This document shows, in pieces, positions 42,915 to 52,041 of a DNA stretch of 64,000 nucleotides. Position 1 is the stretch's first letter. The number at the start of each line of letters is the position of its first letter. Source of the DNA: Bacteroidota bacterium (GTDB lineage Bacteria; Bacteroidota; Bacteroidia; Chitinophagales; Chitinophagaceae); assembly GCA_018267705.1 (NCBI GenBank), contig JAFDXX010000001.1, forward strand, positions 62,001 through 126,000, written 5' to 3'. Both the position numbers and the translations under genes were made by a program. The notes below the pieces were generated by a model that was not told the DNA's origin, ran no database searches, and was given only the letters and a program-made list of their open reading frames with translations.

Positions 42915-44567
42915 ATGGATAAAAAATATTTTAATGTAATTATTGCATCAACTGTAGTTGTATATATATTGAGCATGTTTTATGTTCCTTTAATGGATAT
43001 TGATGCAGCTCAATATGCTTCTATATCTCGTGAAATGTTGGAAAGAAAAAGTTATTTACAACTATATGATTTAGGAAAAGATTATTTAGATAAACCACCT
43101 ATGTTGTTTTGGCTTTCTACCATAAGCATGAAAATTTTTGGTATTCATGATTGGGCATATCGGTTACCTTCTTTTCTGTTTTCATTAATAGCCATTTATT
43201 CAACTTTTAGATTAGCATATATCTTCTATAAAAAAGAAATTGCTTTATTGAGTGCATTAGTATTAGCTACAAGTCAGGCAATGTTTTTAATTAATCATGA
43301 TGTTAGAACCGATACTATGTTAATGGGCTGGGTAACCTTTTCACTGTGGCAATTAGCAGCATGGTATGCAACCAACAAGTGGAAATATTTTTTATTAGGG
43401 TTTATTGGAATTGCCGGCGGAATGATGACGAAAGGTCCTATTGCATTAATGGTTCCTGTATTTGCATTAGTACCGCATTTTATTTTAAGAAGAGAATGGA
43501 AACAATTTTTTAGATGGGAATATTTGCTAGGCATATTTATAATTGCTATTGCTCTAATACCTATGAACATTGGGTTATACCAACAATTTGATATGCATCC
43601 CGGAAAAATAATAAACAATGTTCCTATAAAATCTGGTTTGCGTTTTTATTATTGGACACAAAGTTTTGGAAGATATACCGGTGAGAATGTTTTTAAAGAA
43701 ATGAATGAATTTACTTTCTTATTACAAAACATGTTGTGGAGTTTTTTGCCATGGATTATTTTCTTTTTAATAGGATTATTGTTGAATGTAGTAAGATTAA
43801 TTCAAGATAAATTTAAACTTGCACAAAAGGAAGAATGGATTACAACCGGGGGTTTTATTGTTACTTATTGTGTATTGGCAAGAAGTCAGGCACAGTTGCC
43901 TCATTATATATTTATTGTTTTTCCGTTGGCATCGGTTGTTACAGCTAAGTTGTTGTATAAATTATTGTTTACTTCAGAGTTTAAAAAATTACAAAATGTT
44001 TTAGCTGTATTTCATTTTATACTATTTGGATTATTGTGGTTAGCAATAATTGGTTTAATGTATTGGCCATTTGCAACTATCCCAAAATTTGTAAGCATTA
44101 TAGCATTAATATTTTTTATTGTTTATCTTATCATCATATTCAGAAAAAAAATAAAATGCCCTAAACTACTGTTAGCTGCATGTTTTACTACAATTGGTAT
44201 TAATGCTTTTTTGAATACGGAGTTTTATCCTTCTCTACTTTCATATCAACGCGGCAGTATGTTTGCTGCTTACATTCAAAATAATAAAATTGATAAAAGC
44301 AATATTGTTTTATTGAATGAAAATATAGGCCACTCGTTGCATTTTTATTCCAATCATATTTATCCTATAGTATCGTTAAATGAGTTGAATAATAAAGAAA
44401 TGGTAATTGCAAAGAAAGATAGCTTGCCACTTATTATGCAACGCTTCCCTTCAGCAACTGTTATTACAGAAATTAAAACGTATGGAGTAACACAATTATC
44501 ACTTCCATTTCTTAACCCAAAACTTAGAGAAAAAGAGTTGATAATTTATGATTTAATTAAACTATAG
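42915..44567 (+). CDS. Glycosyltransferase family 39 protein (ArnT/PMT-like)
   Basis: 550 residues with a dozen membrane helices. The first periplasmic loop has MDIDAAQYASISREM (catalytic acidic pair) and 'YLDKPPMLFWLSTISMKIFGI', the classic DKPP signature of GT39/GT83 enzymes that move sugars from a polyprenyl phosphate onto lipid or protein. The C-terminal 80 residues are a small soluble domain. The PAP2 gene nine bases upstream could recycle the lipid carrier, which fits a cell-surface glycan role (inference). It overlaps the convergent polX gene by six bases. Confidence 0.93.
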   Translation: MDKKYFNVIIASTVVVYILSMFYVPLMDIDAAQYASISREMLERKSYLQLYDLGKDYLDKPPMLFWLSTISMKIFGIHDWAYRLPSFLFSLIAIYSTFRLAYIFYKKEIALLSALVLATSQAMFLINHDVRTDTMLMGWVTFSLWQLAAWYATNKWKYFLLGFIGIAGGMMTKGPIALMVPVFALVPHFILRREWKQFFRWEYLLGIFIIAIALIPMNIGLYQQFDMHPGKIINNVPIKSGLRFYYWTQSFGRYTGENVFKEMNEFTFLLQNMLWSFLPWIIFFLIGLLLNVVRLIQDKFKLAQKEEWITTGGFIVTYCVLARSQAQLPHYIFIVFPLASVVTAKLLYKLLFTSEFKKLQNVLAVFHFILFGLLWLAIIGLMYWPFATIPKFVSIIALIFFIVYLIIIFRKKIKCPKLLLAACFTTIGINAFLNTEFYPSLLSYQRGSMFAAYIQNNKIDKSNIVLLNENIGHSLHFYSNHIYPIVSLNELNNKEMVIAKKDSLPLIMQRFPSATVITEIKTYGVTQLSLPFLNPKLREKELIIYDLIKL

Positions 44568-46247
44568 CTTGTTTCTTTTTGCTTGTTGCGTTTCAACAAA
44601 TTTTTCAAATTCAGTTAAAGAAAAGCTGCTTAAGTTTTGTTGTTTAGTTAAACCGGCTTTTTGTGCAGCAAGTATGCCGTATTTACAATCATTAAAACCA
44701 TCAAGATTATGTGCATCGGGGTCTATAGAAATTAAAACATTTTTCATTAATGCATAATCAATCCACCGCCAATCAATATCTAATCTGCGTGGATGTGCAT
44801 TTAATTCTATTACTACATTGTTGGCTGCACAAGCATCTATAATTATTTTATGATTGATAGGATAACCATTTCTACTTAATAAAAGCCTTCCCGTCATGTG
44901 CCCTAAAATTGCGGTGAATGGGTTTTCAATGGCTTTTAATAAACGCATCATAGCTTTTTCTTCATTCATTTTTAAGTTTGAATGAACAGAAGCAATAATA
45001 ATATCAAAAGTTTTTAAAATTGCCGGAGTATAGTCAAGGTTCCCATCATTTAAAATATCGCATTCAATACTTTTAAAAATTTTAAATGGATAAAGTTGTT
45101 TGTTTAGCGTTTCAATTAATTCATGTTGTGCAACAATTCTATCTTCTGTTAAACCTTTGGCATAATACGCAGCTTTTGAGTGATCGCTTATAACTAAATA
45201 TTGTAAACCTCTTGTAATACATTCGTTGGCCATTTCTTCAATAGTGTTACTTCCATCACTCCAATTGCTATGACTATGAATAATAGCTTTTATATCTTCC
45301 GGCTGAATTACTGTGGGTAAACTTTTGTTTTTTGCTTGTTCTAGTATAAAGCTTTTCTCTCTTAAAAATGCTGGAACAAATTCAATATTATAAATTGAGA
45401 ATATTTCTTCTTCAGTTTTATAAAAAGTATTTTCATTCCAATTAGTATGTTTTACCCATTCATTATAAAACTCTTCGCTACAACTTGTTTTAAAAAGTGT
45501 AGCAATTAAATTTTCATTGCTGCAACAGTAAAATCCTAACTCAATATTTTCTTTTCCTTTAAATGAAATATAATTAGTGGTTTCGGTAATTAGTTGATAT
45601 TCATTCTGTAAAAAAAAATTTTTGAAATTAGTGGTTGAACAATTAGTTACCCATTCTAATTTATCAATAGTTTCTAATTGCCTTTTAAATGCACTTGTTA
45701 TATAAAATGAAAATTCTTTAAAAATGGTTTTTAGTTTTTCATCTAATGCAATAGTATAAGTTTCAATTTGTTCGTATAAATAATTTCCCATGTTGCTTAA
45801 ATAAAACTCAATTGATTCTTTAATATTGTTTTGTGTTTTTTCTCCAAAGCCTTTATATAATGTTAATCTGTTTTCATTACAAGCATATAATAATTCTCCA
45901 ATAGTTTCTATTTCTAAATCTTTCCAAATAGTTGCAATTTTTTTTGGCCCGAGCCCTTTTATATGCAATAACATTTCTATGATTCCCTGAGGTGTTTTTT
46001 CTAAATATTCATTTAAAGAAGATAGCTGCCCGGTTTGTAATTGTTCAATAATTTTTTTGCCAACAGACTCTCCAATACCTTTTAGCGATAATATTTTTTC
46101 TTCATCAATAGTATTTAATTGAATATTTAATTTTTCAATATTGTATGCAGCAGATGAATATGATTTTGCTTTAAAACTATTATCGCCATGTATGTCCATA
46201 AGTTTGGCAAGCAAAGAAAAGTTATCTGCAATAGTATAATTGTCCAT
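44562..46247 (-). CDS. polX: PolX-type protein: HhH + degenerate polymerase palm + PHP domain
   Basis: 561 residues. Residues 1-160 hold an 8-kDa-like region and helix-hairpin-helix motifs ('LKGIGESVGKKIIEQLQTG', 'HIKGLGPKKIATIWKDL', 'LYKGFGEKTQNNI'). The palm follows, but the catalytic DxD reads Lys196-Leu-Glu198 in ETIDKLEWV, and the third Asp is Glu in IELGFYCC. The PHP nuclease domain is intact: H324-S-H326 in IIHSHSNWSDG, VISDHS, ASVHSNL, GHMTGRLL and SIDPDAHN. It probably acts as 3'-5' exonuclease or AP endonuclease in repair without polymerising. Confidence 0.93.
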   Translation of the reverse strand: MDNYTIADNFSLLAKLMDIHGDNSFKAKSYSSAAYNIEKLNIQLNTIDEEKILSLKGIGESVGKKIIEQLQTGQLSSLNEYLEKTPQGIIEMLLHIKGLGPKKIATIWKDLEIETIGELLYACNENRLTLYKGFGEKTQNNIKESIEFYLSNMGNYLYEQIETYTIALDEKLKTIFKEFSFYITSAFKRQLETIDKLEWVTNCSTTNFKNFFLQNEYQLITETTNYISFKGKENIELGFYCCSNENLIATLFKTSCSEEFYNEWVKHTNWNENTFYKTEEEIFSIYNIEFVPAFLREKSFILEQAKNKSLPTVIQPEDIKAIIHSHSNWSDGSNTIEEMANECITRGLQYLVISDHSKAAYYAKGLTEDRIVAQHELIETLNKQLYPFKIFKSIECDILNDGNLDYTPAILKTFDIIIASVHSNLKMNEEKAMMRLLKAIENPFTAILGHMTGRLLLSRNGYPINHKIIIDACAANNVVIELNAHPRRLDIDWRWIDYALMKNVLISIDPDAHNLDGFNDCKYGILAAQKAGLTKQQNLSSFSLTEFEKFVETQQAKRNKL

Positions 46248-46283: not shown

Positions 46284-46316
46284 AATAAAACCCCGCAAAG
46301 CGAGGTTTTATTTTTA
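46284..46316. terminator. Rho-independent terminator of the histone-like gene
   Basis: AAAACCTCGC, a three-base loop and GCGGGGTTTT (minus strand, one mismatch), with flanking A and T runs. It lies between the polX start and the stop of the 44-residue gene at 46338. Confidence 0.75.
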
Positions 46317-46337: not shown

Positions 46338-46472
46338 TTATTTCTTTTTAGCAGCTTTTTTAGCGGCTTTTTTTGGAGCAGCTTTTTTAGCAGCTTTTTT
46401 TGGAGCAGCTTTTTTTGCAGCGGCTTTTTTTGGAGCAGCCTTTTTAGCGGCTTTTTTTGCGGCTTTTGCCAT
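46338..46472 (-). CDS. 44-residue Lys/Ala/Pro repeat protein (histone H1-like)
   Basis: The gene reads MAKAAKKAAKKAAPKKAAAK and goes on in the same way to end AAKKAAKKK, with three AAPKK units. Composition is only Lys, Ala, Pro and the initiator Met. It resembles the C-terminal tails of histone H1 and bacterial H1-like proteins (Hc1, AlgP, and the tail of some HU proteins), which bind DNA by charge. A clean ATG and TAA, a terminator after it and steady codon mixing (GCA/GCC/GCT, AAA/AAG) argue for real coding. It is 73 bases downstream of rpmA and could be a nucleoid or ribosome-associated factor (inference). Confidence 0.75.
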   Translation of the reverse strand: MAKAAKKAAKKAAPKKAAAKKAAPKKAAKKAAPKKAAKKAAKKK

Positions 46473-51661: not shown

Positions 51662-52030
51662 GGGCCTGTATTGGTTTTGACAGCATAAGTTATGGTAAGT
51701 ATAAGCATGCAGTGCGTTGAATAATTAGCACTTAAATCTGAATATTCAAACTATAAATGGCAATACACAGTATGCCATGGCTGCTTAATCAGTGATTAAC
51801 CAGTCATTCGGGCCGCCGAACAGGTTAGCTTGTTACCAAGTTCCGCCGCCGACTCAAAACAAAACAAGATGCGGTTGTTATAGGCTGTGCTAACAACTAA
51901 AGTACATTCAGCTAAGTATTAAATTGGTTTGTTCATTTCCTGTTAAATACCTACAATGAATAATGAAATAAGCATGTAGAAAATTTATGATAGCAATGTT
52001 TGGACAGCGGTTCGAGTCCGCTCAGGTCCA
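51662..52030 (+). ncRNA. ssrA: Transfer-messenger RNA
   Basis: The 5' end GGGCCTGTATTGGTTTTGAC and the 3' part (T-arm GCGGTTCGAGTCCGC, then CAGGTCC) pair as a seven-base acceptor stem with a G3-U70 wobble, the alanine identity element. The tag frame resumes at GGC 51759 and ends at TAA 51786-51788, encoding GNTQYAMAA, of the same length and style as other Bacteroidota tags (e.g. GETNYALAA). The discriminator A52030 is followed by CCC, so the 3' CCA is not fully encoded and needs tRNA nucleotidyltransferase. It rescues stalled ribosomes with SmpB. Confidence 0.95.
51759..51788 (+). other. tmRNA tag-peptide reading frame (GNTQYAMAA)
   Basis: GGC AAT ACA CAG TAT GCC ATG, then GCT GCT and TAA. 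The ending YAMAA is a typical degradation signal. The resume codon GGC (Gly) is the usual Bacteroidota choice. The preceding bases ACTATAAAT stand at the resume-codon determinant. Confidence 0.85.
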
Positions 52031-52041
52031 CCCAAAAATAC

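Follow-up and report, generated by a model that had tools for sequence, protein, structure and literature searches.

The gene on the reverse strand at the center of this study, located in the window (the entire 64,000-nucleotide stretch of contig JAFDXX010000001.1 that was analyzed), very probably encodes a noncanonical PolX, a predicted repair nuclease on the framework of an inactive polymerase. The protein appears, on the basis of its sequence, to be a further member of a published class and not a discovery. Prostova et al. (2022; PMC9226535) described noncanonical PolX as proteins with an altered catalytic triad, changes in the dNTP site, deletions in the palm or fingers, and an intact PHP domain. 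Their main cluster comprises Bacteroidetes and Deinococcus-Thermus, with Taibaiella soli and Flavisolibacter named in the legend of the alignment figure (PMC9226535), and the picture presented in PMC12926913 agrees. The window PolX shares with the class an altered triad, a degraded dNTP site, shortened fingers, and the PHP ligands HHHEHHEDH, but it differs in its Lys-Glu-Gly (KEG) triad and in carrying Leu425 and Lys392 where the Thermus thermophilus and Deinococcus radiodurans enzymes have Phe and Ala. The exact residues that we report can be used to test this assignment.

Table 1. Features of the window. Domain limits within the PolX protein are approximate.
Feature	Position in window	Strand	Basis or remark
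Predicted noncanonical PolX gene, 561 aa	44562..46247	(-)	ORF call
8 kDa HhH domain, aa 1-75
Thumb HhH domain, aa 76-150
Palm, aa 151-245
Fingers, aa 246-290
Linker, aa 291-318
PHP domain, aa 319-541	44625..45293	(-)	Alignments
S185-A186-F187-K188-R189 codons, degraded GSxRR dNTP-binding motif	45681..45695	(-)	Alignments
Lys196-Leu197-Glu198 codons, replacing the catalytic Asp-x-Asp	45654..45662	(-)	Profile-to-chain and MAFFT alignments
Gly238 codon, replacing the third catalytic Asp	45534..45536	(-)	Both alignments
GC-rich hairpin followed by T-rich sequence	46285-46310	(-)	Between the 44-aa ORF and polX; terminator-like by eye, terminator scan negative
44-aa ORF, almost only Lys/Ala/Pro, histone H1-tail-like	46338-46472	(-)	Just downstream of rpmA
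tmRNA	51662-52033	(+)	Only Rfam family above gathering score in the window

The ORF call returned the same coordinates and strand as a first-pass annotation made from the sequence alone, and the HhH and PHP domains named there were recovered as the Pfam matches above cut-off (PF14716, PF14520, and PF02811, with HHH_8 at residues 1-75, HHH_5 at 91-146, and PHP at 324-485). The same Pfam scan did not find a palm or thumb domain, and the NCBIfam model for PolX (NF006375) scored 370.7 bits, under its curated cut-off of 426, which places the protein outside canonical PolX by this measure. The ORF codes for a full-length family X protein with 8 kDa, HhH thumb, palm, fingers, and PHP domains all present. 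An AF2 model generated from 26 sequences had a mean pLDDT of 90.8, with most of the palm above 90, and confidently predicts that the palm fold is kept. The closest solved structure was D. radiodurans PolX (2w9m_B; Z 37.9, rmsd 9.8, 526 residues aligned), and the model also matched T. thermophilus PolX (3au6_A; Z 35.4, rmsd 14.4, 529 aligned). The high whole-chain rmsd values probably reflect domain placement, and identification of the fold therefore rests on Z scores and coverage.

Among characterized enzymes, D. radiodurans PolX (2w9m) is the top structural match of the window PolX and shares with it a five-domain fold and an altered triad. The D. radiodurans enzyme differs in having one more acidic triad residue, fingers of 37 residues in our alignment, and Glu at the Lys65 column. 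Canonical representatives are the PolX of T. thermophilus (3au2) and Bacillus subtilis, both of them polymerases (PMC9226535). They share the domain order and the HhH and PHP core of the window protein; the T. thermophilus enzyme differs in its DDD triad and its GSxRR and YxTGS motifs. The actinobacterial 'PolX-like' proteins also keep PHP and have lost polymerase function; however, their polymerase domain is deleted, whereas the window PolX keeps a putatively dead one (PMC12926913).

To define the palm columns, a 26-sequence profile was aligned to solved chains and a separate MAFFT alignment was made; the two agree. Both yield K196/E198/G238 as the catalytic triad, consistent with the first-pass reading of Asp-x-Asp as Lys196-Leu-Glu198. 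That reading had also placed the third Asp at the Glu of IELGFYCC (Glu236), but in both alignments Asp243 of T. thermophilus (chain numbering) pairs with Gly238, two residues later (E-N-I-E-L-G versus N-G-L-Q-V-D). The same MAFFT columns read DDD in T. thermophilus and AEE in D. radiodurans, and the latter is the published triad, which supports the third-site column. K196 and G238 are thus non-acidic replacements of catalytic Asp residues, as in noncanonical PolX. The GS of the nucleotide-binding GSxRR motif is likewise changed, to S185-A186 and not to the TS initially proposed, and the gate region aligns as KTSCSE versus YLTGSK. At the Asn279 column the residue is Tyr, neither Asn nor Ser, in one alignment and a gap in another. 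The fingers comprise 25 residues versus 38 in T. thermophilus in the MAFFT alignment, and the palm, with the domain limits defined here, spans 75 residues versus 78, palm deletions being common but not universal in the class. Collectively, these alignments point to a degraded polymerase metal site and dNTP site and to shortened fingers.

The distribution of these features among relatives was evaluated in 170 distinct sequences with a readable palm, including the window, most of them from the same family and class. This set is not random: close homologs were given priority and 36 members were selected to span families, such that loci in the class sample comprise the best 30 of 145 plus 36 chosen ones, mostly one per family. 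Rows dropped were one whose palm reads N (L186), eight duplicates, and the window's own locus (L001). A first alignment (A1) comprised 25 of 29 non-self loci; the four with a reported stop were left out and entered later alignments. An altered triad was found in 167 of the 170 relatives in this non-random set, in 96 variants, and the remaining three (L147, L184, and L185) have DDD. The 32 altered and the 4 canonical sequences in a tree of 36 hand-chosen rows lie on opposite sides of one branch (support 100/99). The nearest two congeners carry KEN and KEG; sequencing error as the source of the altered triad was rejected because these congeners are in the same state.

A polymerase that remains active through a different set of metal ligands, with Glu198, Asp195, and Glu236 taking over from the three Asp residues, could account for columns 195 and 198 being acidic in 67% and 79% of the altered rows, and Glu236 lies on the same strand two residues ahead of the third site. 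We consider this very improbable, however, given that none of the 167 altered rows has three acidic residues at the aligned triad sites, that the third position is most often Arg or Lys (70/167), that a degraded dNTP motif is accompanied by shortened fingers, and that the Deinococcus AEE enzyme is inactive as a polymerase. Nor did a search by column recover catalytic Asp residues preserved at other palm positions, a finding that the first-pass annotation had itself named as a refutation of its reading: columns of the palm and fingers that are acidic in at least 50% of altered rows are limited to 162, 192, 195, 198, 259, and 279-281, D195 is offset by one residue from the catalytic D-x-D, and the D-x-D plus third-strand arrangement could not be rebuilt. 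An intact Asp at another palm position was accordingly rejected, as no acidic column fits.

The PHP site, by comparison of sequences, is complete, with nine metal ligands and a five-residue DNA path. The ligands are H324, H326, H356, E395, H422, H450, E481, D511, and H513 (the HHHEHHEDH pattern), and all nine are kept in each of the 167 altered rows. The motifs initially listed (HSH 324-326, SDH 354-356, VHS 421-423, GHMTG 449-453, and DPDAH 509-513) are all present; two further ligands, Glu395 and Glu481, were absent from that list. Residues along the DNA path of B. subtilis PolX are R469, R474, N498, R503, and K545 (PMC6616362), and their counterparts, at a constant offset of 15, are R454, R459, N483, R488, and K530. 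These basic and polar residues are kept in 166-167 of the 167 altered rows.

One position in this domain departs from the B. subtilis enzyme. At the site of Phe440 the window PolX has Leu425, and Leu occupies this column in 157 of the 167 altered rows; the T. thermophilus and D. radiodurans enzymes and two canonical class members have Phe. The Phe440Ala substitution lowers AP-endonuclease efficiency 480-fold and removes most AP-endonuclease and exonuclease activity in B. subtilis PolX (PMC6616362), suggesting that the PHP activity of the window protein could be weaker or shifted. A term search of the main text of PMC9226535 returned no mention of the equivalent residue. Two other distinctive positions are the near-invariant basic residues Lys392, kept in 166/167 altered rows and Ala in T. 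thermophilus and D. radiodurans, and Arg127, kept in 156/167 altered rows and replaced by an acidic residue in the same two enzymes.

The PHP part of the model also matches YcdX (Z 27.6, rmsd 2.0, 222 residues aligned) and histidinol phosphatases (Z ~20, rmsd 2.9-3.4, 222-225 aligned), as would be expected were the protein a small-molecule phosphatase or phosphoesterase with no DNA role, like HisK-type PHP proteins. The near invariance of the thumb HhH motifs and of the DNA-path residues makes such a function highly unlikely. Sequence conservation is strong in the thumb HhH part and PHP and lower in the 8 kDa part. Comparison with the two congeners yielded dN/dS values of 0.062 and 0.023 for the thumb, 0.105 and 0.063 for PHP, and 0.368 and 0.193 for the palm. 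Purifying selection is thus strongest on the thumb and PHP. The palm value is about three times that of PHP yet below 0.4 everywhere in these two comparisons, indicating that the palm is relaxed but constrained, as expected of a scaffold, and is not a pure relic. This constraint, together with the retention of Glu198 and an acidic neighbor, would speak against a nuclease-only protein.

Activities assayed for related enzymes are consistent with a nuclease. The PolX of D. radiodurans (AEE) and D. gobiensis (ARE) have no polymerase and strong Mn-dependent 3'-5' exonuclease activity, and mutation of two PHP ligands abolishes the exonuclease activity of the former (PMC9226535). An earlier report that the AEE enzyme acts as a polymerase is cited and disputed in PMC9226535. 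The earlier proposal of a nuclease instead of a gap-filling polymerase is supported by homology to these enzymes and by the window triad having fewer acidic residues than AEE, and by analogy we infer that polymerase activity has been lost.

A noncanonical PolX of this type might operate as follows. The HhH and 8 kDa domains would bind gapped or nicked DNA, with the dead palm acting as a scaffold, and the PHP domain with Mn2+ would trim or unblock 3' ends as a 3'-5' exonuclease, 3'-phosphatase or phosphodiesterase, or through AP cleavage. The gap would then be filled by another polymerase. The 8 kDa domain may additionally be a dRP-lyase acting through Lys65, which is kept in 141/167 altered rows and aligns with chain residue 72 of Pol lambda (Lys312 in our numbering), the lyase lysine of that enzyme. 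This match makes 5'-dRP lyase activity plausible.

In the host, the likely setting of these steps would be base-excision or single-strand-break repair. The class has been proposed to be linked to NHEJ, with NHEJ genes enriched in PolX genomes (PMC9226535), and in our sample of 296 class genomes (145 with a PolX match, 35 with Ku, and 22 with both, by hand count) Ku was detected in 22 of 145 PolX genomes versus 13 of 151 others. This difference was not significant (Fisher p 0.10), and 123 of the 145 PolX genomes lack Ku. Moreover, the host genome (2.63 Mb, completeness estimate 100%) yielded no match to Ku (PF02735) or to ATP-dependent ligase (PF01068), models that do match control genomes, and no second PolX was found in it. 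An end-processing role with Ku and LigD is therefore exceedingly improbable for this protein and was rejected for this host, barring a Ku gene missing from the assembly. With these observations the published class, in which the nuclease is the reason for retaining a polymerase, comes to include a host without any NHEJ, where the class must have another job. The host also encodes an ExoIII homolog and AP_endonuc_2 proteins, suggesting that the role of PolX may be redundant; PolX as the sole AP endonuclease of the cell was rejected on the strength of the ExoIII score (307 bits).

Examination of the family revealed a lead that, if it holds, would matter more than the window gene itself. One relative (G009) has two PolX genes, a nuclease-only gene (L019) and L147 (G009:C41:40800-42900), which has a DDD triad and intact GS and TGS motifs and in which the PHP ligand positions read RQRLNNECQ. 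With L147 as the query against 394 family genomes (assigned to Chitinophagaceae by named relatives), a second, canonical-type PolX gene was identified in 45, and one locus was read per genome. Four of these second genes combine a DDD palm with a dead PHP site (L211-L214; L147 and L212-L214 in a side list), and 23 have DDD in an ORF of 340-455 aa that ends before PHP (L232-L254). A live PHP was found in 17 loci, one of which (L228; triad DDF, two stops reported) looks degraded, and one short gene (L255) falls outside these classes. G616, with a short frame of 277 aa, was not counted as PHP-less. Thus, 27 of 394 family genomes encode an intact polymerase triad with a dead (4) or absent (23) PHP.

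Searches (tblastn with three PHP domains) of ~1.5 kb downstream of the 23 PHP-less genes (148 bases for L243) returned no match. In the one PHP-less gene that was scanned, Pfam recovered the 8 kDa part, thumb, and palm. The PHP-less PolX2 group differs in that its N-terminal domain is missing as well (PMC12926913). A polymerase-core tree of 47 rows groups the dead-PHP genes in a single clade (100/98) and requires two changes for the PHP-less genes, a single change occurring in 0 of 200 bootstrap trees. At least two losses of PHP, and more probably three, have therefore occurred, the latter count treating the two PHP-less groups and the dead clade separately. Only 10 of 2935 collected prokaryotic PolX are shorter than 400 aa (PMC9226535), a count against which the rate of PHP loss among the second genes is odd. 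A literature search restricted to papers outside subscription found none that describes a PolX with a dead or missing PHP from these bacteria.

The nuclease-only PolX is also present in 43 of the 45 second-gene genomes (judged by a score of more than 800 bits, with G426 and G482 as the exceptions) and in 26 of the 27 with a dead or absent PHP. This pairing was rejected as evidence by itself because nearly all genomes of the family carry the nuclease-only gene; 372 of 394 genomes match the query somehow, most of them plausibly through that gene. We tentatively propose, as a possibility somewhat short of an even chance, that the family split PolX in two: the near-universal nuclease-only PolX would do 3'-end cleaning, freeing the second, canonical PolX to lose PHP at least twice (likelier three times) and become Pol beta-like, the two together amounting to B. 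subtilis PolX in trans. If true, such natural separation-of-function pairs make coordination of the two PolX activities testable.

Upstream of polX on the same strand are rpmA (L27) and rplU (L21). Among 45 named loci covered by more than 13 kb of sequence, 43 have both genes; in 20 loci of other families, the 2.5 kb upstream contained neither. Of 62 named loci with L27 at most 2.5 kb upstream, 56 have a micro-ORF similar to the 44-aa ORF (23-139 aa) in the interval from rpmA to polX. No such ORF occurs in any of 20 upstream regions taken from outside the family, in 19 of which polX was re-found by tblastn. A Pfam scan of the window micro-ORF gave no match, and its Lys/Ala/Pro repeat pattern was not found elsewhere in the host genome. 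In four loci where L27 is more than 4 kb away, the micro-ORF is with rpmA in three and beside polX in none. A partner-gene relationship with polX was rejected, as the micro-ORF tracks rpmA.
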